Of a stretch of 64,000 bases of DNA, positions 10,318 through 59,719 are shown in pieces. The DNA lies in the NCBI RefSeq assembly GCF_013449375.1, contig NZ_JACDRR010000021.1:8853-72852 (forward strand), written 5' to 3'. The notes under the pieces are model-generated. The model searched no databases. It had not been told where the DNA came from and was given only the letters and a program-made list of their open reading frames with translations. Numbering within the stretch: position 1 is the stretch's first letter; each line of letters starts with the position of its first letter. The position numbers were made by a program, and so were the translations under genes. Source of the stretch: Pectobacterium sp. CFBP8739 (GTDB taxonomy: Bacteria > Pseudomonadota > Gammaproteobacteria > Enterobacterales > Enterobacteriaceae).

Positions 10318-10430
10318 CTTAAGAGAAACAGGCCATGATGGCCTTGGGATGGGTCTTATTTATCAACGGAGAATTTCTCTCCTTAAAATAATAAGGCTGA
10401 TTAGCAATATTACTGCTAGGAAAAGGATTT

Positions 10431-12296: not shown

Positions 12297-12311
12297 GATC
12301 ACCACAAAAAA

Positions 12312-12353
12312 GGGAACCGACTCAGAACCACGTTATGTTGGTTCTCGGTTCCC
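12312..12353 (+). terminator. Hairpin terminator after svx
   Basis: GGGAACCGA (12312-12320) pairs with TCGGTTCCC (12345-12353), and an inner AGAACCA/TGGTTCT stem lies within it. It begins 15 bp after the svx stop codon. There is no U-tract, so it may act as an RNA 3'-end stabiliser as much as a terminator. Confidence 0.6.
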
Positions 12354-12362
12354 CATAAATAC

Positions 12363-12387
12363 ACAGGCCGCCATGATGGCGGCCTGT
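12363..12387. terminator. Second hairpin between svx and the small ORF
   Basis: ACAGGCCGCC and GGCGGCCTGT form a perfect 10-bp stem around ATGAT. It sits 18 bp beyond the stop codon of the minus-strand small ORF and could serve either strand. Confidence 0.55.
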
Positions 12388-12404
12388 TTGCATAGCACAA
12401 ATTC

Positions 12405-12491
12405 TTAGAACAGTGCGCCGGGCGGTACGTCTTTATAAGTATTCAGGTAAGCCGCCAGCATTTTTTTAAAGAAGTTACGCACTTTTTTCAC
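12405..12491 (-). CDS. Candidate small protein, 28 residues
   Basis: A minus-strand frame from GTG 12491 to TAA 12405 encodes 28 residues: a very basic start (VKKVRNFFKKML), then AAYLNTYKDV and PPGALF. An in-frame TAA lies 12 bp upstream of the GTG, so it cannot be the tail of a longer gene in this frame. A weak AAGG overlaps the start and a perfect hairpin follows the stop. I recognise no family. The charged amphipathic N-terminus and the Pro-Pro-Gly tail look more protein-like than chance sequence, but this remains a candidate only. Confidence 0.35.
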   Translation of the reverse strand: MKKVRNFFKKMLAAYLNTYKDVPPGALF

Positions 12492-12871
12492 CTTATTGAC
12501 TTAGCTCGTTATTCTAATGACGCGATGGGGTGGTTCTTGCCTTACGTGGCAGTGGGCTGCCTTATGGTGGTGAATTGTACAACCCCTATGGTTCAAAAGC
12601 CAATTTTTTGTGACATACATCACATAATAAAATTCACCGACACTTTCCCCTATTCCCACCTGCTTCCCACGCTGATTTTCTTTTGTTGCGAATCATTACC
12701 CTCAGTGACCAATACACCGCAGGCTATGCTATGCTCATGATGAAAGACGAAATTTTAGTCACTGTCCGTTATTAATTGAGCGCCATTCACTGTCGGTTAG
12801 CACACTTTTTGCGCGCAGTCACCACGGTTTCGCCATTGGTTATTCGCTAATGAAGGCCTATTCCGACCCCC

Positions 12872-14065: not shown

Positions 14066-14097
14066 CGATCCGGCGAGCGACGGATATACCTTGAAAA

Positions 14098-14129
14098 CCA
14101 TAGACTTCATTGCAAAATGAAGCCTATGG
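14098..14129. terminator. Hairpin after mdtG
   Basis: CCATAGACTTCAT pairs with ATGAAGCCTATGG around TGCAAA, 13 positions with one mismatch. It lies 33 bp after the mdtG stop. It has no U-tract, so termination is likely but not certain. Confidence 0.6.
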
Positions 14130-14206
14130 TCACAAAACTGACATGACGATTATCTATGCTCCGACAATACGTCTGTTCAATCACCCCACATCAAAGAGCG
14201 AATCCC

Positions 14207-15568
14207 ATGAAACACACGTTGTTAGCACTGCTGGTTGCCGGATTTTTGCCGTTCAGCGTTCAGGCCGCAGGAGAAAAGGTGACACGCTATGTCGTCACCT
14301 TCCCAGCCAGCGAGCGTGTGACGTATCAGGGAAAATTCGCCCAGAATTTCCCCAATGGCCTGCCTGTTGGCATTGGTTCCGGCCTCTATTTTACAGGCAA
14401 ACAGGGGAACGACCTAATGTTCACCACCGTCACCGATCGCGGCCCGAATGCCGATGCGCCGCTGGTCGGCGAGAAAGAGGCCAAGATCTTCGCCAGCCCT
14501 GATTACGCGCCGCTGATGATGGACATTCGGGTCAGTGCGAAAACCGCCGAGGCGATCAACGCCCGCCCGCTGCACGATGGCGAGGGTAAAATTACCGGCC
14601 TACCGCTGCCGGCAGATTTTATTGGCACCACCAATGAAGTGGCGCTGAACGATGCGTTGCACCCCCTCAGCACCAGCCAGCGCGGGCTGGACACCGAAGG
14701 GATTACGCCGGACGGCAACGGCGGTTTCTGGCTGTGTGACGAATATGGCCCGTTCCTGATCCACGTTGATGCCAGCGGGAAGATCCTGCAAAAATTCGGG
14801 CCAACGCCTACGAGCAATGAACACTCGGTTGCCAGCGGCTTACCGAATATCATCAAGTGGCGTCAACCAAATCGGGGTTTTGAAGGGCTGACCCGCCTGC
14901 CAGATGGCACGATCGTCATGGCTGTGCAAAGCACGCTGGATATCGACGGCAAAACCAAAAATAAAGCACAGTTTACGCGTCTGGTGATGTTTAATCCGGA
15001 AACCCAAACCAGCCGCATGCTGGGCTACCCCATCAACATCGACAGCTATAAGAAAGCGAAAGATGCCAAGATCGGCGACATCGTGGCGCTGGATAATCAG
15101 CGCATTCTGCTGGTCGAGCAAGGCGCGGATAAAGACAAACAGATGCAGAACCGCATCTATCTGGTCGATCTCAGCAAAGCGAGCGACCTGACGCCGTTCG
15201 ATGCCGATGGAAAATCGCCAGAATTTGACGATCTCGCCCAGTTGGAAAAACGCGGCATTACGTTGGCGAGCAAGCAGGAGCTGGTCGATCTGCGTAAGCT
15301 CGGCTGGCAGCAGGAGAAAGTTGAGGGGCTGGCGCTGGTCGATCAGCAAACACTGGCCGTTATCAACGACAACGACTTTGGTCTGCAATCCGTGCTGCAA
15401 TCTCCAGTGAAAGTGAAAGACAAAGCGGACGACTATCAGGTTACTGCCGATGGTAAACTGACGCGGGACGGAAAAGCCGTCGATACAACGCTAGCCATCA
15501 AACCGTTAGAGAAGCCAGAAGCCGATAATGAACTGTGGGTGATTCACCTAGCACAACCACTGAAGTAA
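14207..15568 (+). CDS. Secreted esterase-like / phytase-like protein
   Basis: This 453-residue protein has a clean signal peptide (residues 1-20, cleaved after VQA). The mature part matches the 'esterase-like activity of phytase' domain: TVTDRGPNADAP, EGITPDGNGGFWLCDEYGP, GFEGLTRLPDGTIVMAVQS and a late VEGLALVDQQTLAVINDND, all typical of its beta-propeller repeats. It probably acts in the periplasm or outside the cell, and the natural phosphoester is unknown. The ATG at 14207 is chosen because only this start gives a signal peptide; a longer frame from 14156 does not. It is monocistronic, between two hairpins. Confidence 0.85.
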   Translation: MKHTLLALLVAGFLPFSVQAAGEKVTRYVVTFPASERVTYQGKFAQNFPNGLPVGIGSGLYFTGKQGNDLMFTTVTDRGPNADAPLVGEKEAKIFASPDYAPLMMDIRVSAKTAEAINARPLHDGEGKITGLPLPADFIGTTNEVALNDALHPLSTSQRGLDTEGITPDGNGGFWLCDEYGPFLIHVDASGKILQKFGPTPTSNEHSVASGLPNIIKWRQPNRGFEGLTRLPDGTIVMAVQSTLDIDGKTKNKAQFTRLVMFNPETQTSRMLGYPINIDSYKKAKDAKIGDIVALDNQRILLVEQGADKDKQMQNRIYLVDLSKASDLTPFDADGKSPEFDDLAQLEKRGITLASKQELVDLRKLGWQQEKVEGLALVDQQTLAVINDNDFGLQSVLQSPVKVKDKADDYQVTADGKLTRDGKAVDTTLAIKPLEKPEADNELWVIHLAQPLK

Positions 15569-27493: not shown

Positions 27494-27518
27494 CGCCCCG
27501 ATTTTCGGGGCGTTTTTT
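27494..27518 (+). terminator. Terminator of fumA
   Basis: CGCCCCGA-TTT-TCGGGGCG is followed by TTTTTT, a strong intrinsic terminator on the + strand. Its T-tract overlaps the stop codon of the convergent norR gene. Confidence 0.92.
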
Positions 27519-29055
27519 ATTTGATGCCCAACCGCTTCGCCAGCCGATGCAGGTTGCCGCTGTCTAGTTCAAGTTCCCTTGCGCAGGATGACCAGTTGCC
27601 CTCATGGCGTGCCAGCGTTTGTTGGATGACTCGACGCTGATAGTCGTCCGTTGCCTCCCGCAGGCCGCCACTGATGAAATACGCGGGTGCCGTGTCGATA
27701 GCGCTCGACGCCCCTGCGGCGGCATGAACAGGCAGGGAGGGAAGCTCAAGATTGAAATGCTCACGCCCCAACAGCACCTCGCCCGATTCCTGTCCTGCTC
27801 TCGCCAGCACGGTGGCACGGTAAATAGCGTGTTCCAGCTCGCGCACATTCCCCGGCCAGTCGTATTGTTCCAATAGCGCGCCCGTGTCGGCCGTTAACGC
27901 CAGACGTGCCAGCCCCAGTTGCACGCGGCTGCGCTCACAGAAGAACCCCGCCAACAGCGCCACATCCTGACGGCGCTCGCGCAGCGGCGGTACGGATAGC
28001 GGGAACACGCTCAGACGGTGGAACAAGTCAGCACGAAAAGCGCCATCCAGCACCGCCTGCCGCAAGTCACGGTTAGTCGCCGCCAGCACGCGCACGTTCA
28101 CTTTCAGGCTATTGTCATCACCCACGCGCTGGAGATCGCCATACTGCAATACACGCAGCAGTTTCGCCTGTAGCGTCAGCGACAGTTCGCCAATCTCATC
28201 CAGAAATAGCGTGCCGTTATCCGCCATTTCAAACTTACCGGTGCGATGATGGATCGCTCCGGTAAACGCGCCCTTCACATGACCAAACAGCTCACTCTCC
28301 GCGACCGACTCCGGCAGTGCGGCGCAGTTCAGGTACACCAGAGGATGACTTGCGCGGCTGGAACCACGATGGATTGCTCGCGCCACCAGCTCTTTACCAA
28401 CGCCGGTTTCCCCCATAATCAGCACGTTCAGATCGGAGCCCGCGACGATATCGACCTCCTTCTTTAGCCGCTGCATCGGTTCCGACAGCCCGACCATTTC
28501 CTCCACGCTTTCCGCCGCCGGACTTTCAGCACGGACCGGCGCGGGCAACTGCCGCTCAAGACGCTCCATCAGCAGCGCATTGCTCAGCGCTGCCGCCGCC
28601 ATCGCCCCCACCAGCCGCAGTTCTTCATCGCTAAAATGGTCGAACTGGCAGGGATCCATACCGTCCACGGTCAGCGCCCCGATCAGATTCTGATTGGCAA
28701 ACAGTGGCAGGCCGACGCAAGCATGCACCTTAAGATCCTCCTGACTGGGAATCAGGCCGTCATAGGGGTCGGGAAGCTGGCTATCCGCCGGGAAGCGCAC
28801 CACGTCGCCCGCACGGGCAATCGCCTCCAGACGGGGATGATCGGACAGGCGAAAGCGTCGCCCCAGCACGTCCGGCGCCAGACCGTCGATCGCCAGCGGG
28901 CGGAACAGCTGATTCTCGTAACGCAGCAGCGCCGAGGCATCACAGCGCAGCAGTTGGCGCAGGCTGTTAATCAAGCGCTGAAAACGATCCTGATTTGATA
29001 GCCCCATTTGCAACTCGATAGCGATACGGGCAAGGGCATTAATGGAGAGTGTCAT
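27517..29055 (-). CDS. norR: Nitric oxide-responsive sigma-54 activator NorR
   Basis: This 512-residue bacterial enhancer-binding protein has an N-terminal GAF domain (about 20-175) that binds NO through a non-haem iron. The AAA+ domain has Walker [11 protein letters not shown], the sigma-54 contact loop GAFTGA, and [21 protein letters not shown]-terminal Fis-type helix-turn-helix ends in [16 protein letters not shown]. The ATG at 29055 with AGGA upstream gives the family start; a longer frame from 29100 does not. It diverges from norVW across three GT-N7-AC sites and a sigma-54 promoter. Confidence 0.95.
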
Positions 29056-29060
29056 GGTGT

Positions 29061-29116
29061 GTCCTAATGACAGAGCCTGTGTCATTAAGACAATAGGCAA
29101 ACCATGTCATTTTGAC
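29061..29116. promoter_or_regulatory. Three NorR enhancer sites
   Basis: Three matches to the NorR core GT-N7-AC are GTCCTAATGAC (29061-29071), GTCATTAAGAC (29081-29091) and GTCATTTTGAC (29106-29116). Three sites upstream of norVW is the arrangement known in E. coli, where all three are needed for activation. Confidence 0.85.
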
Positions 29117-29158
29117 AATAAGTATTTATTAAATAGTTATAAATCAATATATTAAAAA

Positions 29159-29175
29159 TTGGCACACTTTCTGCA
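29159..29175 (+). promoter_or_regulatory. Sigma-54 promoter of norVW
   Basis: TTGGCACACTTTCTGCA has the -24 GG (29161-29162) and -12 GC (29173-29174) elements at the invariant spacing. It lies 46 bp before the norV start and downstream of the NorR sites. Confidence 0.9.
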
Positions 29176-29220
29176 ATCTCTACAGCATATTTCCGTATAC
29201 GACTATTGAGGTTTCAGAAC

Positions 29221-30750
29221 ATGGCAATTCACGTTAAGAACAATATTCATTGGGTTGGACAACGCGACTGGGAAGTGCGTGATTTTCACGGCACGGAGTA
29301 CAAGACGCTGCAAGGCAGCAGCTATAACAGTTATCTGATCCGCGAAGAAAAAACCGTGCTGATCGATACTGTCGATCACAAGTTCAGCCGCGATTTTGTG
29401 CAGAACCTGATGGCGGAAGTGGATCTGAACACGATTGACTACATTGTGATCAACCACGCCGAAGAAGATCACGCCGGGGCGCTGAGCGAACTGATGGCGC
29501 GTATTCCCAACACGCCAATTTATTGTACCCACAATGCGATCGATTCCATCACCGGTCACCATCATCACCCTGAGTGGAATTTCCATACGGTCAAAACTGG
29601 CGACAGGCTGGATATCGGTAACGGCAAGCAGTTGATCTTTATCGAAACGCCAATGCTGCACTGGCCGGATAGCATGATGACCTATATGACCGAGGACGCC
29701 GTGCTGTTCAGTAACGATGCGTTCGGTCAGCACTACTGCGATGAGCACCTGTTCAATGACGAAGTGGATCAGACAGAACTGTTCGAACAATGCCAGCGCT
29801 ATTTCGCCAACATTCTGACGCCGTTCAGCCGCTTAGTCACCGCCAAGATCCATGAAGTGCTGGGCTTCAACCTCCCGCTGTCGATGGTGGCGACCTCACA
29901 CGGCGTGGTATGGCGTGACGATCCTGCCCAGATCATCCACCTGTATCTGAAATGGGCGGACAGCTATCAGGAAGATCGCATCACGCTGTTTTACGACACC
30001 ATGTCCAACAACACCCGCATGATGGCCGACGCCATTGCGCAAGGCATCAACGATGTCGACCCCGGCGTCGCGGTGAAAATCTATAACGTCGCCCGCCACG
30101 ATAAGAACGAAATCCTGACGCAGGTCTTCCGCTCGAAAGGCGTGCTCGTCGGTTCATCTACCATGAATAACGTGATGATGCCGAAGGTCGCCGCCATACT
30201 GGAAGAGATCACTGGCCTGCGTTTCCAAAACAAGAAAGCCTCAGCGTTCGGCAGCTATGGCTGGAACGGCGGCGCGGTCGATCGCATTCAAACCCGTCTG
30301 ATGGACGCCGGTTTTGAAACCACGCTGGCGCTGAAAACCAAGTGGCGTCCTGACGGTTCCGCACTGGAAATTTGCCGCGAACACGGCCGCGAAATTGCTC
30401 GTCAGTGGGCGCTGCATCCGCTGGATGATACGCCAGCCCGTCGCGTCATCTCGCCCGTAAAACAGACCACGGTGACACCACAAACCGCCAGCGCCCCGCA
30501 GGGTGTGAGCGCCCCCGCCGAGAGCGCCTGTGGTTGCAGTGAAGTCGCAGCGCCGCAGTCCGCAGCACAGCCAGCAATGCCGTCAGAAAGCGGCTGTATG
30601 CAGTGCAGCGTCTGCCAGTGGATTTACGATCCGGCACTGGGCGAGCCGATGCAGGATGTCCCCCCCGGAACCATGTGGTCGGACGTACCAGACAGCTTCC
30701 TCTGCCCGGAATGCGGGCTGGGCAAAGACGTTTTCAATCCGATTAGCTAA
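29221..30750 (+). CDS. norV: Flavorubredoxin, nitric oxide reductase NorV
   Basis: This 509-residue cytoplasmic enzyme reduces NO to N2O under anaerobic conditions. The N-terminal metallo-beta-lactamase-like diiron domain has H79, E81 and D83 in [10 protein letters not shown] flavodoxin domain follows ([17 protein letters not shown], about 255-395). The C-terminal rubredoxin has [10 protein letters not shown] and [11 protein letters not shown]. The linker before the rubredoxin is rich in Ala, Pro and Ser, so the protein is about 30 residues longer than E. coli NorV (479). It is co-transcribed with norW, its reductase, from the sigma-54 promoter. Confidence 0.95.
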
Positions 30751-30760
30751 GGAGAGGATG

Positions 30761-31939
30761 ATGAAAGATATCGTGATTATTGGCGCGGGCTTTGCCGCCC
30801 GCCAGCTTATTCGACAGCTCCGCAAACTGGATGCGCACTGTCCTATCCGCCTGATCACCGCTGACAGCGGCGATGAGTACAACAAACCGGATTTAAGCCA
30901 TGTGATGAGCCTGCAACAGCACGCCGACGATCTGACCAAGATGCAGGCCACCGCGTTTGCCGAAGAAAACCGCATTACGCTGCTGGCCAATACGCGTGTC
31001 ACCGCCATTGATCGCCATGCGCAACAGGTCGTCTGTGGTACGGAGCGTTACGATTACCATAAGCTGGTGTTCGCAACGGGAGCGAGCGCCATCGTGCCGC
31101 CAATTCCGGGATGCGAACATATGCTGACGCTCAATAGCCAGCAAGAATACCGCGCCCATGAACGTCGACTCTGGCAGGCCAAGCACGTACTGGTGCTCGG
31201 AGCCGGACTCATCGGCACTGAGCTGGCGATGGATTTGGATCGCGCGGGAAAACAAGTCACGCTGGTTGACTGTGCCAGCAACATTCTGCCGGCATTGATA
31301 CCGCCTGAAGTCAGCGCGCGCCTACAATTCACGCTGACGCAACAAGGGGTTTCACTGCTGCTGAACACGACCCTGCAACAGTTGGAGAAAACCGAAACCG
31401 GTGTGCTGGCCACATTTACCGATGGCCGAACTGTCGAGGCGGACGAAGTCCTCTCCGCTATCGGTTTGCAGGCCAACACATTGCTGGCGAAAGCAGCGGG
31501 GTTAGCGGTGCAGAAAGGTATTCAGACCAATGCGCAGTTACAGACCACCGATCCGCAGATTTATGCGCTGGGCGACTGCGCGGAAATTGGCGGTAAGCTC
31601 CAGCCCTTCCTGCAACCTATTCAGCTCAGCGCCATGACGCTGGCGAAGAACCTGCTGGGTGCCAGCGAGTCCCTGACGCTGCCGCCGATGCTGGTGAAAA
31701 TCAAGACGCCGCTGTTTCCGTTACAAATGGCGGGTGATACCACGCGTGGCGACTTGCACTGGCAGCAGGAATGGAACGATCAGGGGATGGTAGCGAAAGC
31801 GCTGGATCGTCAGCAGGCGCTGCGCGCCTTTGTGGTCGGCGGTGAACGGATGAAAGAGGCATTTCCGCTGCTGCGACAGCTTTCCACGACGAGTGCAACC
31901 ATGACGAATGTAACCATGACGAATGTAACTACAGCCTGA
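30761..31939 (+). CDS. norW: NADH:flavorubredoxin reductase NorW
   Basis: This 392-residue FAD enzyme passes electrons from NADH to NorV. FAD and NAD motifs are IIGAGFAARQL at the N-terminus, VLGAGLIGTELAMD near 145 and YALGDCAEIGG near 270. Two adjacent ATGs follow GGAGAGG; the second (30761) has the better spacing and gives the family start MKDIVIIG. The C-terminus carries a 15-bp tandem duplication encoding TMTNV twice, extending the protein past the E. coli end. norV and norW are 10 bp apart. Confidence 0.92.
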   Translation: MKDIVIIGAGFAARQLIRQLRKLDAHCPIRLITADSGDEYNKPDLSHVMSLQQHADDLTKMQATAFAEENRITLLANTRVTAIDRHAQQVVCGTERYDYHKLVFATGASAIVPPIPGCEHMLTLNSQQEYRAHERRLWQAKHVLVLGAGLIGTELAMDLDRAGKQVTLVDCASNILPALIPPEVSARLQFTLTQQGVSLLLNTTLQQLEKTETGVLATFTDGRTVEADEVLSAIGLQANTLLAKAAGLAVQKGIQTNAQLQTTDPQIYALGDCAEIGGKLQPFLQPIQLSAMTLAKNLLGASESLTLPPMLVKIKTPLFPLQMAGDTTRGDLHWQQEWNDQGMVAKALDRQQALRAFVVGGERMKEAFPLLRQLSTTSATMTNVTMTNVTTA

Positions 31940-49710: not shown

Positions 49711-50310
49711 TTAGTTTCGCGCCTGCGCGTGCCACACAATCTTACTCACTTTCCAGTTTTTCAGGATATCGTCCGGCGGCATCAAGCCTTCTGGGCCGCT
49801 CCATTCGCCGGAATAGAGGTAGCTGATATGCGTACTCTGCGGCGCGGCGCATTCCACACTTTGCGCATCATCACCTTGTCCTAACTGACAGGATTCAAAC
49901 GCTTTGCTGTAAGTATTGCTAAAGGCGTCACCGATTTTCACACCGCCTGCGCTGCCAATCGCGGGATCCATGACCTCAACTTTGCGCACGCTGCCCTTCG
50001 GCTGACCGCTGATGATCATCTTCACCTCTTTCCCATCCAGCGCCTGATAAAACGCGACCAGTTGACCGTTGGAGGTCCCCATTCCGCTACGCAGTTGATA
50101 GTCACCATCCAGCGCGCTCTGTAGCGCCCCTTCGGACAGTGGCGTACCGGCATTAATGCCACCAACACCCGCATCAGTCACCTCCAGCGAACTGCCGAAC
50201 CAGTTAAACGGCGACAGGCTGGACCAAGAGAAATGGGAAAGCGTGCTGCATCCACTCAGCACCAGTGGTAAACCCAGCACCAGCGATAAACCCAGCGGGC
50301 GAAAATTCAT
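49711..50310 (-). CDS. yfeY: RpoE-regulated lipoprotein YfeY
   Basis: This 199-residue lipoprotein has a signal peptide with lipobox LSGC; the lipidated Cys is at 21. The mature protein matches E. coli YfeY: INAGTPLSEGALQSALDGDYQLRSGM, GSAGGVKIGDAFSNTYSKAF and NWKVSKIVWHA. In E. coli it belongs to the sigma-E envelope-stress regulon. The function is unknown. It marks the left border of the region where the fus genes are inserted between yfeY and ypeA. Confidence 0.9.
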   Translation of the reverse strand: MNFRPLGLSLVLGLPLVLSGCSTLSHFSWSSLSPFNWFGSSLEVTDAGVGGINAGTPLSEGALQSALDGDYQLRSGMGTSNGQLVAFYQALDGKEVKMIISGQPKGSVRKVEVMDPAIGSAGGVKIGDAFSNTYSKAFESCQLGQGDDAQSVECAAPQSTHISYLYSGEWSGPEGLMPPDDILKNWKVSKIVWHAQARN

Positions 50311-50621: not shown

Positions 50622-52295
50622 TCAACTACGCTGCGAGGAAAAATCGGTTAAGTCATAACGGTGCGGGAACAGATCGTCCAACTCCGTCTGGTGCGTAATC
50701 GCCACCACGGTACACGCGGGCAACGCCATCTTGACCAGCGCAAGAAGCTGTCTGGCAGAATCATGATCCAGATTGCTGGTCGCTTCATCCAGATAGAGCG
50801 TATCGGGTTTGGCAATCAGCGCACGGGCAAAAGCGACGCGCTGCCGCTCCCCGCCGGAGAACACCCGATCCCAGTTCAGTTGCTCATCCAGACGATCGCG
50901 CCACGCGCCCAGCCCGACGCTATCCAGCGTCTGACGCAGCATCTCGCTGTCAGCCAGCGTCGGGTGTGGGTAGCAGAGGATCTCTGCCAGCGTCCCTTGT
51001 CCCAGATAGCTTTGCTGCGGTAACAGTAGGCTACGTCCTTCCAGTGCCTGCCAGCGGCCATCGTAATAAGGCCATAGCCCATTTAGCGTGCGTAGCAAGG
51101 TGGATTTCCCCAGCCCGCTGCGGCCAGACAACTTACTCCAGCTACCTGCTTCGCAGCTCAGATCCACATTTTGCAACAGCGGAGCGCCCTGCGGCGTGGT
51201 GAAAGAAAGCTGATCAATACGTAAATCCTGTCCTACCGGCGCATCGACCTGTTCAGACTGGTGACGTTTGATTTCTTCCTTAAACTGGCTCAAACGCGTC
51301 ATACTGGCAGAAAGAATCACGAACTCTTTGTACTTATGGATAAACCAACTCAATGCACCGTGCACTTGCGCAAACGCCCCGCGGATCTGCATCAACCCGC
51401 CCAGCGTTACCGTTTTACTCAGGAAGGCAGGCAGAGCGGCAAAGACCGGCACAATCTGGCTTACACGCATATAGCCCGTGGTGAAGAAGCCCAGATTACG
51501 CTCGGCATTCATAAAACGCCCCCAGTTCGACACAATGGCAGAGAAATGTCGCTGAAGATGGCTTTTCTCTTGCGCTTCGCCGCCGTACAGCGCGATTTGC
51601 TCGGCGTTATCATGCTTACGCAGCAGCGCTGCACGGAAATCGGCCTCTGCCTTTTGCTTCTCATAATTAATATTATGCAGACGTTTCCCGACCACATGCG
51701 TAATCAGGCTACCGAGCAGCGTATACAGAATAGCTATCCAGACCAGATAACCTTCGATTACCCACTCTTTGCCAAACAGCGTAAAGCGCTGAACGCCCGA
51801 TAATCCCCACAGAATGACGACGAAAGAGAACAAACGCGCGGTCACGATCAAAAATTCGATGACCAGACTAACGGCTTTGTCGACAAACAGGTTGATATCT
51901 TCGGCAATACGCTGGTCTGGGTTATCAATCTTGCCCGCAACTGACATGCGATAAAATGCCCGCTTCGCCAGCCAGCTATCCACCAGTTCGGCGGTTAACG
52001 CGGTACGCCAGCGGATAATCAGTAGTTTGGTAAACCACTCCTGATACACGATCGACCCAATATAGAGCAGGATGTAAACGCCGTATTCTTTCATCAGGGA
52101 CATCAGCAAACTGCTGTCGAACGACCCTAACGCATCGTAAAACGTCTTACTCCACTCGTTTAATAACACATTGAGATAAACGATCATCCCGCCCATCGCG
52201 ATGGCGATGAACAAGAGCAACCAAGCCTGCCAGCTTCGTTTGCCGCCCCAGAAAGGGCGGCAGAGATCGACAAATTGAGCCATTACCTTCTTCAC
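50622..52295 (-). CDS. fusD: ABC transporter FusD (SbmA/BacA-like permease with ATPase)
   Basis: This 557-residue inner-membrane protein has an N-terminal six-helix domain of the SbmA/BacA type and a C-terminal ATPase: Walker A SGRSGLGKST, signature FSGGERQRVAFARAL and Walker B TLYLDEATSNLD. It matches E. coli YddA and Pectobacterium FusD. It is the last gene of the ferredoxin uptake operon; a role in importing the cleaved product or iron is proposed but not settled. The GTG start at 52295 overlaps the fusC stop as GTGA and has AGGTGAAAGA upstream; an ATG at 52283 is an alternative. Confidence 0.88.
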   Translation of the reverse strand: MKKVMAQFVDLCRPFWGGKRSWQAWLLLFIAIAMGGMIVYLNVLLNEWSKTFYDALGSFDSSLLMSLMKEYGVYILLYIGSIVYQEWFTKLLIIRWRTALTAELVDSWLAKRAFYRMSVAGKIDNPDQRIAEDINLFVDKAVSLVIEFLIVTARLFSFVVILWGLSGVQRFTLFGKEWVIEGYLVWIAILYTLLGSLITHVVGKRLHNINYEKQKAEADFRAALLRKHDNAEQIALYGGEAQEKSHLQRHFSAIVSNWGRFMNAERNLGFFTTGYMRVSQIVPVFAALPAFLSKTVTLGGLMQIRGAFAQVHGALSWFIHKYKEFVILSASMTRLSQFKEEIKRHQSEQVDAPVGQDLRIDQLSFTTPQGAPLLQNVDLSCEAGSWSKLSGRSGLGKSTLLRTLNGLWPYYDGRWQALEGRSLLLPQQSYLGQGTLAEILCYPHPTLADSEMLRQTLDSVGLGAWRDRLDEQLNWDRVFSGGERQRVAFARALIAKPDTLYLDEATSNLDHDSARQLLALVKMALPACTVVAITHQTELDDLFPHRYDLTDFSSQRS

Positions 52296-55066
52296 TCTTT
52301 CACCTCTTGCGGCAAGGTGATGTATAGCACGCGGTTATCCGGGTTATACAGCTTCGCCGACATCGAACGAACCTCTTCCAGCGTGATGCTATCCGCCAGT
52401 TTGGCTACGCTAGTCAGATAACGCGGATCGTCATAATGGCGGTAGCTCAGGAGCAGACGACGCTGTATCGTCATGAGATCGCTCTGACGCCCTTTTTCCG
52501 CACGAATAAACTGTGCCTTCTGCTCATCCACATCTTCCTGAGTAATCTTTGTCGGCAGTTCAGCAAAGACGTGCTCGGCCAGTTTCCACAGTTCCTGCGC
52601 ACGTTCAGGCGCGCTGGTGAAACTCACTTCCGTCTCAATACGCTGTTTCTTATCTTCCAGCTCGCTATCGACACGCATCCGGTAAATGCCCAGTGCATCA
52701 TCACGCAGGCTCGTCTTGAGATACTTATTCGCGATATTGCGGGCAATACTCACTTGAACCGCGGCCTGCGGCGTCCACGTATATGGCGTGAAGCTCGAGG
52801 TCAGGATGTCGGCACGCGGCTCAATATTGATAGCCGATGTCGCCTCACGTTTACCCGGCAGCGCCAGATGTGATTTCACGTCACTGGCTGGCTGACGCGG
52901 GATCGTCGCGAGATAGCGTTCAACCGCTGGCAACAGCTGTGCAGCAGGCATATCCGCGATCAGATAGTACGTCACGGGTGCAGAAGCCGCTTTATGCCAC
53001 TGTGACAGCAAAGCTGGCGCGGAAACGTGCTTCAGTTCTTCAATTTCAGGCTGCTGCCAAGCTGGCCCGCCAAAACGTAATTTGGCGATATCGCTGGCCC
53101 GTTTTCCTGAAACCGATTGATCGTCATTGGCCTTCTGACGCGCCAGACTCATCATGCTCTCTTTCATCACCTCAGGATCGATACCCGGCGCCACATTCAG
53201 CTCGCGGTATAACCCCAGCAGACTGGCTAGTTGCTCAGTGGGGGCGCTCCCGTTTACCGTCAGTTGATCCGCTTCCTGATCGATGCTCAGCGACAGGGAT
53301 TTATCTTTTTTCCAGTTCGTTAGCGCTTCACCACGCCATGTCGCAGGGCCGCTCTGATTGACCAGTTGACTCGCCAGTTGTGCCTGCCACGGATTCAGCG
53401 ACGTCGCCATGAATCCAGCCTGACTCGTCGCGGTGAGATACACTTTCTTACCCGCTTCCGGCGCGCGCAGCCACACGACACGATCGCCATTGCTCAACTG
53501 CCACTGCTCGACCTTCTGTGCGGCAAACGTCTTCACCGCCGTGCGTTTCCCACTTTGCGTTACGGCAGGAAGCTCAGGGATGACTTTTTCTTTTTCTACC
53601 TGTAACGGTGCCAGCGTCGCTGCTGCCCACTGCGCTTGTAACTTACGCATCGCCTCCGGCTTCGGCAACGTGAAAGGCGTCGCACCTGGCACACTAAACT
53701 GCACCAACGTATCTGGAGAAGCTAACCAACGTTGCCAATGGCGGTTCACATCTTCCGCGGTGATGGTGTCCAGCGCTTCAAGGGCGTCTTTACCGCGCTG
53801 CTGGCTGCCGACATAAGGGCGATCCTGTTGCCAGACGATGGTCAATTGCTGCACCCAGTCCGCAAATTCACGCGACTCAGGGGTATCGCTCATACGCTGT
53901 GCGACTTCACGAATGTCGGATTTGATCTCCGTGATGTCCTGCTCGTTTAACGGATAGCGTTTGAACCGCTCAATTTCTTTCAGTACCGCAGAAATCGCGG
54001 CATCATGGCCACCCGGCATCACATTGGCGAAAAATCCCAGTGCGGCCGTCGTTTTACCGATATCTGATTTACGCACCACCAGACTACTGGCGTCTTGCGG
54101 CAACTCCGCCTGCTGTCGGCGAACCTGACGCGTTACCGCAGACAGTGTGATTTGGGTGAGCAAACGGTGACGGTAATCGGATTGGCCGAAGGTGTCTTTA
54201 TCATTGAAACGGTAGACAAACGACACCTGACTGCTACCACTTTGGCTATCCTGCAAACGCGCCACGTTGAGCTGCGGTTTCAGTAACGGCTCATAGTAAT
54301 CACGAGCTGGCACAGCAACATTCGGCAGCGGTGCAAAATAGCGTTGAATGTCGCGTTCTGCATCCGCAGGCGTGATATCACCGATAATCATCAACCGCAT
54401 ATTCGACGGGTGATACCAACGCTGATAGAAATCCTGTAGTACGCTGGCTGGCGTTTCATTAATCGACTGTTCCGAGCCAATCGTCGGGCGGGAAGGATAA
54501 CGGGAACCGTGGCGAATCGCCTGTACACGCTGCTGGTTCATGCGTTCCGCTACGCCCAGCTTGCCACGCCACTCTTCCAGAATAATTTTGCGCTCATCGT
54601 CGAGATCGGCTTGCGACAATTTGGCATGTCCCGTCATCTGGCTTAGCGCCTGTAACGTCGTCCCCAGATCGCGATTCCCTTTCGGCGGGCTCATCATGTA
54701 CATGGTGCGCTCGTAGTTGGTCACCGCGTTATAGCTCTGTCCGCGTCCCCATCCCTGTTTGTGCAGTTCCGTACTCACACCTTGAGGAAACGCCTCGCTG
54801 GCGCGGAACACCATGTGCTCCACCATGTGCGCCACGCCGGACTCGTTGTCCTTCTCATCAATCGAACCGACATCCACAATCAGGCGAACATCTATCCGCG
54901 ACTTCTGCCCTTCCAGCGGCACGAGGGTATAACGCAATCCATTCGCCAGCGTTCCTTCTTTAAAAGCTGGCAATGGACTTTTCACTTCTTCGGCCTGGCT
55001 CACAACACTTCCAGCTAACAGGCCGACAGCCGTTAGCGATAACCAGCAACATCTCTTCCAGTTCAT
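52292..55066 (-). CDS. fusC: Periplasmic M16 ferredoxin protease FusC
   Basis: This 924-residue zinc protease has a signal peptide of about 26 residues ending VVSQAEE. The inverted zinc motif HxxEH is at H80, E83 and H84 (AHMVEHMVF), and a distal Glu lies in DDERKIILEEWRG. Four M16 domains follow, the second half without zinc ligands. In Pectobacterium FusC cleaves imported plant ferredoxin in the periplasm to free its iron; E. coli PqqL is the homologue. The ATG at 55066 with AAGG gives the signal peptide. It is 102 bp after fusA, across a hairpin, and overlaps fusD. Confidence 0.92.
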   Translation of the reverse strand: MNWKRCCWLSLTAVGLLAGSVVSQAEEVKSPLPAFKEGTLANGLRYTLVPLEGQKSRIDVRLIVDVGSIDEKDNESGVAHMVEHMVFRASEAFPQGVSTELHKQGWGRGQSYNAVTNYERTMYMMSPPKGNRDLGTTLQALSQMTGHAKLSQADLDDERKIILEEWRGKLGVAERMNQQRVQAIRHGSRYPSRPTIGSEQSINETPASVLQDFYQRWYHPSNMRLMIIGDITPADAERDIQRYFAPLPNVAVPARDYYEPLLKPQLNVARLQDSQSGSSQVSFVYRFNDKDTFGQSDYRHRLLTQITLSAVTRQVRRQQAELPQDASSLVVRKSDIGKTTAALGFFANVMPGGHDAAISAVLKEIERFKRYPLNEQDITEIKSDIREVAQRMSDTPESREFADWVQQLTIVWQQDRPYVGSQQRGKDALEALDTITAEDVNRHWQRWLASPDTLVQFSVPGATPFTLPKPEAMRKLQAQWAAATLAPLQVEKEKVIPELPAVTQSGKRTAVKTFAAQKVEQWQLSNGDRVVWLRAPEAGKKVYLTATSQAGFMATSLNPWQAQLASQLVNQSGPATWRGEALTNWKKDKSLSLSIDQEADQLTVNGSAPTEQLASLLGLYRELNVAPGIDPEVMKESMMSLARQKANDDQSVSGKRASDIAKLRFGGPAWQQPEIEELKHVSAPALLSQWHKAASAPVTYYLIADMPAAQLLPAVERYLATIPRQPASDVKSHLALPGKREATSAINIEPRADILTSSFTPYTWTPQAAVQVSIARNIANKYLKTSLRDDALGIYRMRVDSELEDKKQRIETEVSFTSAPERAQELWKLAEHVFAELPTKITQEDVDEQKAQFIRAEKGRQSDLMTIQRRLLLSYRHYDDPRYLTSVAKLADSITLEEVRSMSAKLYNPDNRVLYITLPQEVKE

Positions 55067-55126
55067 AACAACCTTTTCGTTTTTATTTTTGCCTAGGGGC
55101 AATTTCTGAATGCATCAATGCAAAAT

Positions 55127-55161
55127 GCCCCGTCTACGTCAGGCTGTGACGTAGGCGGGGC
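55127..55161 (-). other. Hairpin between fusA and fusC
   Basis: A 15-position stem with one mismatch: on the minus strand GCCCCGCCTACGTCA pairs with TGACGTAGACGGGGC around CAGCC. It is 7 bp after the fusA stop. Only a weak T-stretch follows, so it may attenuate, or protect the 3' end of, the fusBA transcript, favouring receptor over protease. Confidence 0.75.
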
Positions 55162-55168
55162 ATAGGAT

Positions 55169-57772
55169 TTACCAGGTGTAAGCGACACCAAGCCAGAACT
55201 GGCGACCGGGTTTGTAGGTCACGATCGTGGTATTAATATTAGTTTTCTGCTGCGTTTCAACTACTTTATCCAGAACGTTCAGCACATCCAACGTGATATC
55301 CAGCGTCTGAGTTTTGTATATCGGCTGAGAGTAAGAAAAACGCCAGTCATAGGAGATAAAGTCGTCGTATTGGGTGGAGATATATTCTTTCGCCTCTCCG
55401 GTAAAGTTAGGTTCAGCGTTACAGGCAGGGCTGCCACCAGGACACACCGTATTCAATGCCAGAGGAGTATAGCCTTTGTAACCGGAGGTATAGCCGACAC
55501 GCTGACCCCAATTGAGGCGAATGGCAGGGAAGTAGGTATCCACATTCAAGAAAGCGGTCCAGGGAGTATTGAAATCCATCGCATCCATATCACCTTTATA
55601 CATCAGCTTATCATCAACAATGACCCTGCTCTCATCTGAACTCACGTCATCGTAATAAGCAATCGAGTTAGCTTTATTTTCTGCAATGCTGGCGCCCAAT
55701 TTCCAATTAACTTCTGCGAAGCTGAAACGATGCGGGCTAATTGGCTCCACTTCCAGAGACAATGTATTCCCTTCCGTACGTCCAGCATTATTCATCACAC
55801 GGTAGCGTTGCCCATTAACGGTCTTTGATTGAGCACCAAATTGATCTTTCCCTTTGCGATTAACCCATTTCGCCGTCCATACCGTACTCATAACACGCTG
55901 TGATAGTCCCAGTGTTATTTCGTCACTGTAAGGCGTGCTTAAGTCAGAAACATCATAATCAAGACCGGCAATTCTTGCAGGGTTGGAAACCCATGGATCG
56001 TTGGGCGATGTACGGTTTTGAATAATATTTGTATTAATCCCCTGACGCAGTTTATACGACAGCATATTCGCGCCATAATAGCGATTCGCCCCACCAAACA
56101 GACGTGTTGATCGGTCGCCGAAAACATCATAAGAGGCAGAAAAACGGGGCGCGAAATTCAGGTTCTCCAGAAAATCATCATAACTAGCACGCACACCAGG
56201 GGTCACTTCTACACGGCCAAAAGAAATACTATCCTGAAGGTAAACGGCGTAATTAGTATAACTTCCCTCAACGGTACGTTCTGGATATAGAGTCCGGCCT
56301 TTGAAATATTGTTCCCCGGCAATACAATAGTCATCCCCAGCTTGACATACTGTATTTTTATCAAAAGTTGGTCTTGCTCGACTTGAGCTAACATCGCTAA
56401 AGCGGCGGTATCTTGTGTTATAAGAATCAACTTGCCAGCCTAAATCTAACTGATGCTGGGTTCCCCAGATTGCTAAAGGGTTAAGCTCATAGTCCTGCTT
56501 TAATGTAATTGTGCTTTTTTCTGTTGCAAACGTTCCGGCTCCGCCTATTAATGAATTTTGATAGCTACCAGCAGGAACAGAACTAACCCAGTCAATTTTT
56601 TCGGAAATAAAATTATCCCTTGTACTGTAACGATTCCATGTCTGAAAAGAATTTGACTCATGTTCAATTTTATTTTGTTCAGACTGATATCCCGCCAAGC
56701 TGATCACTTTCCCCCAGTTGGCATTGTGCTCCCACTCCATATTGAAGCGATAACCACCGCCAGTATTAGTGAACGAACCGTTTTTAACATCTCGTTTATA
56801 ATATTTTGATTCGTGCGGAGAATACATGCCCATCATTCGAACAATATCACCATTATCCGCCAGATAGACGCCTTTTAGCAGGTAGGTTTCACTCACTCGC
56901 TCCTGATCATCCCACTGTTGCAAATACTGATGATAATAGGGAATATCTGACTGCTGGCGGTTATAGGCAAAAATAAAGCCAGCTTTATCACTCAACGGCT
57001 GATTAAAGGTGGCTGAATAGAACTGCTTCTTAAATTTCGGTTGGTAATATAAGTTAGTAGCAGAATAGAAATTTTCGCTAATATTGGAATCAACGTGATA
57101 ACTCGTCCAGCTATCGTTCGAGGTTCGGTAAGAAACCTTGCCAAATACATTATCCAGTTTGGGATCCATCAGTTTGGCATCCACCACACCGCCAGTAAAA
57201 TCACCGTACTTAGCGGATATGTTGCTATCAAATACTTCCAGCGACTCAATCAACTCTGAATTAATCCAGAATGACTGTGTCCCACCTGCCGGTAGATCTG
57301 TCGCATTATAACCATCAGGATCAGTATCTAGCTGACCCTTATTGGCTCCTGGGTTGATATTACTATTATTCGATAACCCATCGATCATAAAATTATTGTT
57401 ATAAAATTTCTCGCCGTGGAACGAGACGTTTTCCGGTGCCAGCTCCCCCGGTGTATTACTGCTATTCGCCGTGTTCGAGAACTGCACAGCAGCGTTATTC
57501 TTCAATAACTCTGGTATCGAACCGTTTCCGGTCGGCATTTTTTTAATCTGCTCAGCATTAATGATCTGCGTCCCCATTGACTGACTGGTCGGGGTTGAGC
57601 GGACTAAAATGGTATCTTCACTATTTTCCGAAGAGGAATCACCCTGTTGTTCTTCTTCGGTTTCTGCATTGTTTTTCTGCTGATTTTCATCAACAGAGGT
57701 GTCGTTTTGCTGTGCGAGCGCAGGCGCTGATAATAATGACAAAATCATCATTAAATAGACGTTTTTATTCAT
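55169..57772 (-). CDS. fusA: TonB-dependent plant ferredoxin receptor FusA
   Basis: This 867-residue outer-membrane receptor has a 20-residue signal peptide (to PALAQ). A mature N-terminus rich in Gln, Glu and Asn follows. The plug domain (about 50-215) has QIINAEQIKKMPTGNGSIPELLKNNAAVQF and DFTGGVVDAKL. A large barrel ends in GRQFWLGVAYTW. It matches Pectobacterium FusA, which binds [2Fe-2S] plant ferredoxin and also admits pectocins M; E. coli YddB is the distant homologue. It sits between fusB and fusC. The operon promoter carries a Fur box. Confidence 0.9.
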   Translation of the reverse strand: MNKNVYLMMILSLLSAPALAQQNDTSVDENQQKNNAETEEEQQGDSSSENSEDTILVRSTPTSQSMGTQIINAEQIKKMPTGNGSIPELLKNNAAVQFSNTANSSNTPGELAPENVSFHGEKFYNNNFMIDGLSNNSNINPGANKGQLDTDPDGYNATDLPAGGTQSFWINSELIESLEVFDSNISAKYGDFTGGVVDAKLMDPKLDNVFGKVSYRTSNDSWTSYHVDSNISENFYSATNLYYQPKFKKQFYSATFNQPLSDKAGFIFAYNRQQSDIPYYHQYLQQWDDQERVSETYLLKGVYLADNGDIVRMMGMYSPHESKYYKRDVKNGSFTNTGGGYRFNMEWEHNANWGKVISLAGYQSEQNKIEHESNSFQTWNRYSTRDNFISEKIDWVSSVPAGSYQNSLIGGAGTFATEKSTITLKQDYELNPLAIWGTQHQLDLGWQVDSYNTRYRRFSDVSSSRARPTFDKNTVCQAGDDYCIAGEQYFKGRTLYPERTVEGSYTNYAVYLQDSISFGRVEVTPGVRASYDDFLENLNFAPRFSASYDVFGDRSTRLFGGANRYYGANMLSYKLRQGINTNIIQNRTSPNDPWVSNPARIAGLDYDVSDLSTPYSDEITLGLSQRVMSTVWTAKWVNRKGKDQFGAQSKTVNGQRYRVMNNAGRTEGNTLSLEVEPISPHRFSFAEVNWKLGASIAENKANSIAYYDDVSSDESRVIVDDKLMYKGDMDAMDFNTPWTAFLNVDTYFPAIRLNWGQRVGYTSGYKGYTPLALNTVCPGGSPACNAEPNFTGEAKEYISTQYDDFISYDWRFSYSQPIYKTQTLDITLDVLNVLDKVVETQQKTNINTTIVTYKPGRQFWLGVAYTW

Positions 57773-57848
57773 TTATTCAAAATCCCCAGTGAACCTTATT
57801 ATTTGAAAAATAAAATTATTTTTTTAATGACTGCTGTAACATGTATTG

Positions 57849-58823
57849 CTAATCATCAACCTGAATATGACCATTCAGTTTAAAAACGATGGAAACGACC
57901 TGATTCTCAACGGGTGCCTCCGTCCGATAGCGCCAGCGCGCCATGTCTTTCACTACATCATCGCCAAATACGCCGTCTGGCGTTTCGGACAGAATCTGTA
58001 CGTTAGTGACCGTACCGCTACCGGTAATATCGAATTTGACGCGCACTTTTCCTTCCACACCCAGCGCTTTTGCCCGAGCGGGATAATTCACGCGACGATG
58101 CAGCGCTTTGAAATTTTGGCTATTGCTTTTCCCTGCGCCACGAACCGCCTGACCGCTATCGCTCTCTCCCGCTTTGGCCGTTGTTGCGCTCCCCGACATA
58201 CCCACCGAGGATGGCATTGGAGAAGGGGCATCACCGGTTTGCGCTGTCGCTACGGGGGACTCACTTTTCTTCTCGGTCTGTTGTGTCTGCTGCGTTCTGG
58301 CCTGCTGCTGTTCTTTCGGCTTCTCTTCCCGTTTCTTTTCAGGCTGTTTTTTCTCACGCACGGGCGGCTTTTTTTCCGCTGTCGGCGTGACAGGCTTGCG
58401 TTCAATGACGGGTTGTTCAATAACGGATTGTTTAATAACGGGATTGGGGTGTTCTGGTAACGGCGTTAGGATTGGCATCACCACGGGCGTCGGTTGCGCA
58501 GCGGGAGGATCGGCTACGGGTGGCGACGTGTCGGCAGCCTGTGACATCGCAGCCGCCATCATGGTCACCTGCATGCTGCCGCCCGCGTTTCCCGCCATAT
58601 CGTCAATGTTTTCTTTCGGGGAATAGTGCAATAGAAAGAAAACCGCCAGTAACGCATGCGCCACACAGGACAACACAAAAAAGGCCAGAGAACGCCAGTT
58701 AGGGGTATCGGAATTCGACGCGGCAATTGAATAGGAATGAGCAAAAGAACGAGGGGTCAGCAATGCGCTACCGCCAGTGCGATTCGCACCGAGTAAAGCC
58801 CCCTGAAGATTTTCACGACTCAC
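57849..58823 (-). CDS. fusB: TonB-like energiser FusB for ferredoxin import
   Basis: This 324-residue TonB homologue is anchored by one helix at about 43-67 (LAFFVLSCVAHALLAVFFLL). A long Pro/Lys/Glu-rich periplasmic arm follows, then a C-terminal TonB domain (NYPARAKALGVEGKVRVKFDI to VSIVFKLNG). Work in Pectobacterium shows that FusB drives ferredoxin import and contacts FusA. The GTG at 58823 is chosen because GGAG lies 8 bases upstream; a longer frame from 58919 has no signal. About 40 residues precede the helix, longer than in E. coli TonB. It is the first gene of the fus operon. Confidence 0.9.
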   Translation of the reverse strand: MSRENLQGALLGANRTGGSALLTPRSFAHSYSIAASNSDTPNWRSLAFFVLSCVAHALLAVFFLLHYSPKENIDDMAGNAGGSMQVTMMAAAMSQAADTSPPVADPPAAQPTPVVMPILTPLPEHPNPVIKQSVIEQPVIERKPVTPTAEKKPPVREKKQPEKKREEKPKEQQQARTQQTQQTEKKSESPVATAQTGDAPSPMPSSVGMSGSATTAKAGESDSGQAVRGAGKSNSQNFKALHRRVNYPARAKALGVEGKVRVKFDITGSGTVTNVQILSETPDGVFGDDVVKDMARWRYRTEAPVENQVVSIVFKLNGHIQVDD

Positions 58824-58955
58824 TATCCAACTCCATCTCTTGAACTTCCTGGTGTCAGTCGTGCAATCACAATCTTCCAGGCAATAAAATGTAAGCAAAA
58901 TCAGAACATGAAAAAACATGTCAAGATCAAACGGAGAACATTAATAAATAATAAT

Positions 58956-58974
58956 ACAAATGAGAATCGTTTTA
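58956..58974 (-). promoter_or_regulatory. Fur box upstream of the fus operon
   Basis: ACAAATGAGAATCGTTTTA, with the core AATGAGAATCGTTTT, matches the 19-bp Fur consensus at 12 positions. It lies 130 bp before the fusB start in very AT-rich sequence, as expected for an iron-repressed import operon. Confidence 0.6.
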
Positions 58975-59048
58975 CAAATGAAAACTGTTACCTATGAAAT
59001 CTAACAAATTGCATGCAATACCATTACAAAGCGAAGCAATACGTTGAG

Positions 59049-59081
59049 TTAAAAAGAAAAAGTGCGCTAACGGAGGCGCAC
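59049..59081 (-). terminator. Terminator of ypeA
   Basis: On the minus strand GTGCGC-CTCCGTTA-GCGCAC is followed by TTTTTCTTTTT, 70 bp after the ypeA stop. Confidence 0.9.
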
Positions 59082-59151
59082 ATTTTTACAGAGAGGGGCC
59101 AGAAGGGAGAAGCAGTACAAGAGTAGCAGTTTGGCATCAGTGAAATAACAA

Positions 59152-59577
59152 TCAATACTCCCTGTCTTCAATCAGGCGTTTCCCCAGCGTGACACTATCA
59201 ACCATTTCATAGTCGAGTTTTTCATACATGCCGATGACAGCATCGTTGTCCTCACGCACCATCAGGTGGATCTTCGGACAGCCGCGGGCAATGAGTTTTT
59301 TCTCCAGTCGGCTAATCAATGCATTCGCAATGCCGCGACCACGAAAATCAGGGTGTACGCCAAGGTAGTACGCCGATCCGCGGTGGCCATCGTAACCGCC
59401 CATTACCGACCCCACGATTTCGCCGTTCACCTCTGCGACCAGAAACAGATCGGGGTCATGATTGAGCTTACGCTCGATGTCCATTTCAGGATCGTTCCAC
59501 GGGCGCAGCAAATCACAGCGTTCCCAAAGGGTGATCACGGCTTCAAAGTCATCCTGCCTGAATATGCGGATTTCCAT
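59152..59577 (-). CDS. ypeA: GNAT-family acetyltransferase YpeA
   Basis: This 141-residue N-acetyltransferase is nearly collinear with E. coli YpeA (also 141). The acetyl-CoA loop is [17 protein letters not shown], and [22 protein letters not shown] and [17 protein letters not shown] are shared. The natural substrate is unknown. The ATG at 59577 gives the family start [12 protein letters not shown]; an upstream ATG at 59589 adds four residues. It marks the right border of the fus insertion and diverges from hemF, as in E. coli. Confidence 0.92.
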
Positions 59578-59719
59578 CACAGTCGCCATTTTGCAATAAG
59601 GTAAATCGTGATTATCGCGTGATTTTTATCAGACGCAATCTCAAATTGCGCGCCGCCATCAGGAATCACACAACGGGTGACCGGGGATCGATTTGATTGA
59701 TGGTATACTGCCCGCCTGA

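Follow-up and report, generated by a model that had tools for sequence, protein, structure and literature searches.

A stretch of 64,000 nucleotides from Pectobacterium sp. CFBP8739, referred to here in its full length as the window, carries the genes fusB-fusA-fusC-fusD on its minus strand between ypeA and yfeY. After comparison of this locus across 25 Pectobacterium genomes, including the window's own, we consider it highly probable that it is a canonical fus operon whose front half is one of two interchangeable cassettes. Within the literature searched, the window operon alone is known, and what is new is the exchangeable receptor-and-motor half, together with a cassette of signalling type that lacks FusB. 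The exchange itself is well supported by the sequence comparisons; its purpose is not.

Two front cassettes at the fus locus

A search with the window FusA in the 25 genomes returned 14 full matches (68-100% identity), eight longer proteins (44-47%), one broken copy (G020) and, in two genomes, only weak partial matches. The locus map showed two arrangements. The first, designated type B, has the order fusB-fusA-fusC-fusD and is present in 15/25 genomes, including the broken copy of G020. The second, type S (8/25), consists of genes for an extracytoplasmic function (ECF) sigma factor, a FecR-like anti-sigma factor and a FusA with a FecA-type signalling (STN) domain, followed by fusC and fusD. 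Two genomes are devoid of fus genes. The yfeY side was viewed in all 25 genomes, and the ypeA side in 14/15 of type B (not in G012) and in 7/8 of type S (not in G009, the contig of which begins at the ypeA side of the cassette). Locus L021 of Pectobacterium sp. PL152 (10001-15474) shows fusA and fusC matched in several pieces and an intact fusD, and could be an assembly error.

In the type-S locus of P. carotovorum DSM 30168 (L017), the ECF sigma factor has 179 amino acids, the FecR-domain protein 316 and the STN-bearing FusA 938. Pfam domains Sigma70_r2 and Sigma70_r4_2, FecR, and STN plus Plug were found in loci L017 and L019, and signalling domains also in L197; those of the remaining type-S loci were assigned by homology to L017. 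Over residues 124-938, the L017 receptor finds FusA 4zgv as its closest solved structure (740 bits); the N-terminus of this receptor resembles the signalling domain of FecA, with one HasR match. The NCBIfam models for FecI, FecR and FecA match the type-S proteins below their cut-offs, so these are regarded as relatives of the ferric citrate proteins and not as those proteins. Four of the eight type-S genomes (G005, G015, G017 and G023) are single contigs, which makes assembly error an unlikely source of these loci.

FusB is present in all 15 type-B genomes. At an E value of 1e-6, it was found in none of the eight type-S genomes and in neither of the two genomes without fus genes, where only a TonB of 252-255 amino acids was matched. 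In fact, all 25 genomes have a TonB of 252-257 amino acids that is 34-45% identical to a part of FusB, at an E value of 1e-6 or below. As the FusB that belongs to the Fus system is found in 0/8 of them, the type-S loci are classed here as Fus-like variants and not as canonical Fus.

This distribution departs from published descriptions. Passages of PMC5095587 credit every other sequenced P. atrosepticum and P. carotovorum with close homologues of fusA, accompanied in each case by fusB, fusC and fusD, and report the same company for fusA in Pectobacterium and Dickeya at large. Passages of PMC6963963 place fusABCD in all species except P. betavasculorum, and FusB is treated as conserved in the genus in those of PMC13253070. 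Eight of the 25 genomes examined here break the rule that fusA comes with fusB, P. carotovorum DSM 30168 among them. No mention of a sigma/FecR pair replacing fusB at the Pectobacterium fus locus was met in the literature searched, and figure 2 and the tables of PMC6793856, which present FusA homologues in varied contexts, may hold one.

Exchange of the cassettes

The exchange is clearest in G004 (type B, P. aroidearum L6) and G005 (type S), which are 99.0% identical over gyrB and rpoB. On the left side they share 98.1% identity up to 8 bases beyond the ypeA stop codon, no alignment longer than 100 bases exists across the cassette, and on the right 97.8% identity extends over 8.3 kb from 32 bases into fusC, within the signal-peptide codons. 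With flanks of 98% identity around it, this exchange is, as judged from the alignment, a clean swap of the front cassette. Between the window genome and G021 (type S), homology ends 2 bases beyond the ypeA stop codon and returns 46 bases into fusC, with 93% identity on either side. By these bounds, the exchangeable front cassette of the window spans 55024-59149 (minus strand) and includes fusB, fusA, the leader and the first ~46 bases of fusC.

On a tree of gyrB and rpoB, type S needs seven changes, at least six of which are forced by well supported branches, and three supported sister pairs are of unlike type (G004/G005, G010/G012 and G008/G009). Shuffling of the type labels on the same tree gave a mean of 7.0 changes, with 338/500 shuffles as low as observed.

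The flanks were examined by permutation of the type labels in 18 genomes on the left (6 of type S) and 22 on the right (8 of type S); the others lacked the stretch, lacked fus genes or had a broken copy. Association between type and flank distance appeared solely in the first 300-column window of fusC (0/500 permutations), which includes the non-homologous signal-peptide codons. In all other windows, values were at least 74/500 on the right and at least 43/500 on the left, so neither fusC nor fusD follows the type of the receptor, and FusD is identical in G004 and G005. This lack of association beyond the junction indicates that FusC and FusD serve both receptor types, and both receptors probably feed the same downstream path.

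The operon of the window

By sequence, the window operon is a complete canonical Pectobacterium ferredoxin uptake operon, of an already described kind that lets soft-rot bacteria take iron from a plant protein. The preliminary description of this DNA had proposed four genes on one strand for a TonB homologue, a TonB-dependent receptor, an M16 protease and an SbmA-like ABC transporter, and all four were found on the minus strand within 50622-58919, each backed by Pfam domains. The gene fusB, for the dedicated TonB homologue (TonB_C), occupies 57849-58823 if read from its likely GTG start, within an open reading frame at 57849-58919 that is open from an ATG at 58919. The GTG at 58823, preceded by GGAG at 58831-58834, is most likely the start. 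The gene fusA (55169-57772) encodes the predicted TonB-dependent ferredoxin receptor of 867 amino acids, with a Plug domain and a FusB-box, DTILVRST, that contains D53. It is followed by fusC (52292-55069, from GTG 55069 or ATG 55066) for the periplasmic M16 protease (Peptidase_M16 and M16_C), and by fusD (50622-52295, with a GTG start) for a fused SbmA-like ABC transporter (ABC_membrane_2, SbmA_BacA and ABC_tran) that has a Walker A-like sequence, GRSGLGKS, at residue 391. The conserved flanks, also on the minus strand, are ypeA at 59152-59589 and yfeY (DUF1131) at 49711-50310. The genome of the window holds a single fusA of this kind, its second match being weak and 57 residues long.

The HxxEH motif of FusC, described earlier as intact, reads AHMVEH at residues 80-85 counted from the GTG, with the distal glutamate in ILEEWRG downstream. 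Both this motif and the four-base overlap of fusC and fusD, also described earlier and seen in the window, are kept in 22/22 fusC genes examined (23 of the 25 genomes have fusC, and the frameshifted copy of G020 was left out).

Comparison with characterised Fus proteins bears out the identification of the operon as the Pectobacterium Fus system. Among solved structures, FusA finds as its closest match the ferredoxin receptor 4zgv (E=0, 1469 bits, residues 19-867) and not a receptor for an unrelated ligand. FusC is closest to 6b03, 6b05 and 6brs (1833-1894 bits, the highest for 6b03), and the C-terminal domain of FusB matches 7zc8 and the FusB-ferredoxin fusion 9hi3. The best solved match of FusD is 6tqe, titled ABC transporter ATP-binding protein/permease. 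Counted from the GTG at 58823, the double arginine of FusB (HRRVNYP) lies at 243/244 and the last aspartate at 324. The published residues are R241, R242 and D322 (passages of PMC13253070), only two positions away, which supports the GTG as the start. The window FusB ends in VDD, the site of the C-terminal aspartate switch, and the double arginine and this ending are present in 15/15 type-B genomes. Both features, like D53 of FusA, belong to the residues whose importance has been published. Residue D53 of the FusA FusB-box, a name used in passages of PMC13253070, is invariant in 20 aligned FusA proteins, a set from which L010 was dropped for its internal stop and to which G020 does not belong. 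The dropped sequence (L010:10001-12574) is a FusA of Klebsiella sp. with one internal stop.

The window operon is thus like the Fus system of P. atrosepticum SCRI1043 (FusA) and P. carotovorum LMG2410 (FusB and FusC) in all four genes, their order and families, the double arginine and terminal aspartates of FusB, the D53 box of FusA and the HxxEH of FusC. It differs in that its FusB has Q at the place of R319, a residue that contacts ferredoxin, as do 13/15 type-B genomes. Since passages of PMC13253070 report Q or E there for Brenneria, Samsonia and Dickeya, R319 is not a defining FusB residue.

Sequence divergence within the operon

Mean synonymous divergence (dS) was computed for type B from 14 genomes (91 pairs, G020 excluded), with values of 1.28 for fusA, 0.54 for fusB, 0.58 for fusC, 0.82 for fusD, 0.48 for yfeX and 0.32 for gyrB. 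Spearman correlation with core dS was 0.11 for fusA, -0.02 for fusD, 0.35 for fusB and 0.38 for fusC. Within type-B fusA, the first 80 codons, which include the signal peptide and the FusB-box, have a dS of 0.35-0.51, and later windows range from 0.77 to 1.46. In the eight type-S genomes, the values were 0.70 for fusA, 0.68 for fusC, 0.32 for the sigma gene, 0.50 for fecR and 0.36 for gyrB.

G013, the nearest relative of the window genome on the core tree, has a FusA only 68% identical to that of the window, and fusB and fusC at 94-96%; its FusA groups with those of Erwinia and others (83/92 support), not with the window FusA. When 18 FusA proteins are placed on a tree, type S (four rows from three genera) stands apart from type B (ten rows, 91/96 support), so the split between the types seems to predate the genera. 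Two classes of FusD exist in the genus. They are separated by 22 fixed differences, which all lie at residues 36-321 in the transmembrane part, with none in the ATPase part; this count is descriptive since the classes were picked by identity.

Ferredoxin-domain bacteriocins at the locus

In G009 and G017, a protein with plant-type ferredoxin (Fer2) and Pesticin lysozyme domains is encoded upstream of the sigma gene, and in G021 a related gene, interrupted by an insertion, has the same position. The gene lies between ypeA and the sigma gene in G017 and G021; the contig of G009 breaks off short of ypeA. Within the locus stretches, this ferredoxin-lysozyme gene is present in 3/8 type-S and 0/15 type-B genomes (one-sided exact probability 0.03, worked out by hand and ignoring relatedness). 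The other open reading frames between ypeA and the sigma gene of G017 are all of 42-59 amino acids and were not compared with immunity families.

According to passages of PMC3302902 and PMC4671253, a ferredoxin and a pesticin-type domain make up pectocin P, which the proteins at the G009 and G017 loci resemble in their Fer2 and Pesticin domains. G004, G005 and G008, which include genomes of both types, encode proteins with Fer2 and Colicin_M domains, like pectocins M1 and M2, at other places. The passages cited state no position beside the fus operon for the pectocins, such as the Fer2 and Pesticin genes of G009 and G017 have here. Searches with Fer2 and Colicin_M revealed no ferredoxin bacteriocin among the five Fer2 matches of the window's own genome.

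Carriage of the cassette on plasmids was considered and rejected: among 72,556 plasmid records, the best match to a FusA of the window type was 61.9% identical, in a Pantoea record (the type-S FusA was not searched). None of the same records covers 80% of the ferredoxin-lysozyme protein.

Proposed function and alternative explanations

Judging from published work on close homologues, FusA would bind plant ferredoxin, FusB would open FusA and pull the ferredoxin through, FusC would cut it in the periplasm, and FusD would carry a product inward. The two cassettes may be swapped by homologous recombination in the flanks. Type S would sense a protein substrate at the cell surface and induce the operon, and would be energised by the housekeeping TonB. 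By analogy with the pattern of FecA, HasR and FoxA, we infer that the type-S sigma/anti-sigma pair could respond to ferredoxin. Receptor variation may be selected by differences among host ferredoxins, by bacteriocins bearing ferredoxin domains, or by both.

Several observations weigh against this reading. FusB was required for ferredoxin import in strain LMG2410 (passages of PMC7593965), which leaves room for a FusB-less system to take up another substrate. The bacteriocin gene stands at the locus in just three of the eight type-S genomes, the genus sample holds one genome per species, and a tree distribution equal to that of shuffled labels also fits neutral exchange. Type-B fusA has a nonsynonymous to synonymous ratio (dN/dS) of 0.12, which denotes purifying selection on average and a constrained protein. 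The raised divergence of fusA is, in the genomes compared, confined to type B, which speaks against a general arms race over the receptor.

One alternative is that the type-S cassettes import another protein and not ferredoxin, which would make two uptake systems sharing FusC and FusD. We hold this to be possible, though doubtful. Against six type-B receptors, the type-S receptor reaches just 43-45% identity, and type S is without FusB, the double arginine of which contacts ferredoxin (passages of PMC13253070); however, the same fusC and fusD stand behind both kinds of receptor with no detectable association beyond the junction, and G004 (type B) and G005 (type S) have one and the same FusD. 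The ferredoxin-domain bacteriocin gene upstream of three type-S cassettes also disfavours this alternative, although neighbourhood is no proof of substrate.

It is rather unlikely, in our estimation, that the swaps are neutral, with a recombination-prone locus at which either module does the same job. This would account for the resemblance to shuffled labels on the tree, for the mosaic nature of fusD and for a type-S fusA dS so close to that of its fusC. Against it stands the dS of type-B fusA, which exceeds the values of fusB and fusC more than twofold. This dS climbs beyond codon ~80, once the FusB-box has been passed, a pattern to be expected of old receptor alleles that are kept and exchanged. 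Against it, too, are the strain panels described in passages of PMC5095587, in which growth differed by ferredoxin, three plant ferredoxins supporting 14, 9 and 1 of 17 Pectobacterium strains.

In an extended version of the favoured reading, which appears improbable, the fus locus is a switch between two receptor states, driven by an arms race. Type S would then import plant ferredoxin without a substrate-gripping TonB, induce itself by surface signalling and shield its bearer from ferredoxin-domain bacteriocins that enter via type-B FusA, and the bacteriocin gene and a non-target receptor would travel together as a weapon with immunity by receptor mismatch. It is made less probable by the type-S fusA, which shows no greater divergence than the fusC of the same genomes. 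Very unlikely is the plain reading of a fixed and unremarkable fus operon, set between yfeY and ypeA, and nothing more, since, canonical as the window copy itself is, the other front half at the same place in 8/25 genomes and the lack of the operon in 2/25 already contradict it as a full account of a locus whose site is common to Samsonia, Brenneria and others.

With interchangeable cassettes as the preferred reading, the import of ferredoxin by type-S strains would mean that a substrate-gripping TonB is not needed in all Fus-like systems to pull a folded protein through an outer-membrane receptor, and close relatives would offer a natural comparison with and without FusB. Cassette type might also explain why strains differ in growth on ferredoxin and in sensitivity to pectocin M1, to which 7/10 strains were sensitive (passages of PMC3302902). 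The literature searched puts such differences down to ferredoxin sequence or leaves them unexplained.

Upstream region and control

The 37-bp block at 58943-58979 (minus strand), upstream of fusB, is the presumed promoter and Fur region, and 35 of its 37 columns are invariant in 15 rows (14 Pectobacterium plus Samsonia). Upstream regions were scored with a 19-base sequence that we take to be the Fur consensus, the best match being compared with those of 300 mononucleotide shuffles per genome, which makes a weak test. The Fur-like box proposed earlier lies within this conserved block; as a statistical match it was rejected, since no stretch upstream of the window fusB scores above 11/19, a value equalled in 239/300 shuffles. 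In the other type-B genomes, 9 to 249 of 300 shuffles were equally good, and in G016, G018, G019 and G024 the best match lies outside the presumed box. Fur-like matches in type S reach 13/19 ahead of the sigma gene and 14/19 ahead of fusA (13/19 in G015). Between 1 and 30 of 300 shuffles score as high in the eight Pectobacterium genomes, so these matches are somewhat better than shuffles. For this type of operon, control by the sigma/anti-sigma pair is suggested. In an alignment of the eight Pectobacterium genomes, every one has an inverted repeat, CCTGAA...TTCAGG, before the type-S fusA (L017:9569-9692), where it covers the probable ribosome site.

In the fusB leader (58790-58942), the stretch CCTGGAAGATTGTGATTGCAC...CCAGG is mostly conserved as far as Samsonia, and pairing with RyhB does not explain it. 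RyhB has two matches above the Rfam threshold in each of the 25 genomes. Control of fusB through a leader complementary to the RyhB core was rejected, as the pairing is at background level, equalled or beaten by 455/1638 window stretches and 8/44 gene starts. With nearly the whole of RyhB, long imperfect pairings dominated and the outcome was mixed: 124/410 stretches and 7/200 shuffles were as good or better for copy 1, and 295/410 and 101/200 for copy 2.

The site between ypeA and yfeY

In E. coli K-12, the order is yfeX-yfeY-yfeZ-ypeA-amiA-hemF, so yfeY and ypeA are indeed close together, as had been noted, with yfeZ between them. The operon had also been read as an insertion into conserved gene order, which holds relative to E. 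coli. In the lineage of the window, by contrast, the operon is old at this site, since fus genes lie between ypeA and yfeY also in Samsonia, Brenneria, Symbiopectobacterium, the genomes of group g23 and loci L076 and L078 from other genera. In Erwinia, Klebsiella, Siccibacter and others, the fus genes have no adjacent ypeA or yfeY in the stretches fetched.

All 25 genus genomes have yfeY, which in G017 and G019 (L071 and L072) is matched as two pieces. Of the two genomes without the operon, G003 retains a remnant of ~130 bp that matches the inside of fusD and points to loss, and no fus remnant was found in G007. Between ypeA and fusB, locus L004 has three open reading frames of 220, 233 and 246 amino acids (4738-6824; no Pfam match at 0.001), from which it follows that this site accepts other insertions too. 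In the type-B loci L013 (6130-8352, minus strand) and L064 of G006, a gene for a TonB-dependent receptor of 740 amino acids lies there in opposite orientation (Pfam was run on the L013 copy).

Relatives outside the genus and other features

Among 392 genomes of the family, four that belong to two other genera have type-S FusA proteins of 59-68% identity (G190, G273, G345 and, as a degenerate copy, G339). G190, G273 and G339 carry them at the same ypeA-yfeY locus; the stretch fetched from G345 contains sigma-fecR-fusA-fusC-fusD and neither ypeA nor yfeY. Locus L199, of group g23, is a degenerate type-S locus with fusA, fusC and fusD in pieces. More distant receptors (30-34% identity to type-S FusA) bear an STN domain in both that were scanned. 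One distant Fus-like locus, L198, is similar to type S in its sigma, FecR, STN receptor, ABC and M16 genes, and differs in that its receptor is only 30-34% identical to type-S FusA, its ABC gene precedes the protease gene and the stretch fetched has no ypeA or yfeY. The signalling arrangement may be the older one, with FusB derived.

The type-S loci resemble the surface-signalling system FecIRA in their gene order, with the ECF sigma factor first, the FecR-domain protein second and the STN receptor third, and this likeness presumably extends to HasISR, given the one HasR match. They differ from FecIRA in having a FusA-like receptor barrel followed by fusC-fusD in place of fecBCDE, and the window operon has no sigma, FecR or STN part at all. 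The YddB-PqqL-YddA cluster of E. coli also combines a receptor, an M16 protease and an ABC transporter (passages of PMC6793856); unlike the fus loci, it is without fusB and without the signalling pair, and its gene order is different. Copies of this E. coli receptor on plasmid records are 26-27% identical to the window FusA.

Elsewhere in the window, a further TonB-dependent receptor gene encodes 747 amino acids (4823-7066, minus strand), and a DUF6055 protein of 621 amino acids is encoded at 10431-12296 (plus strand). At 27517-31939, a gene for a sigma-54 activator with a GAF domain diverges from those for a flavodoxin-rubredoxin protein and a reductase, which we take to be an ordinary nitric oxide reductase cluster, norR-norV-norW.

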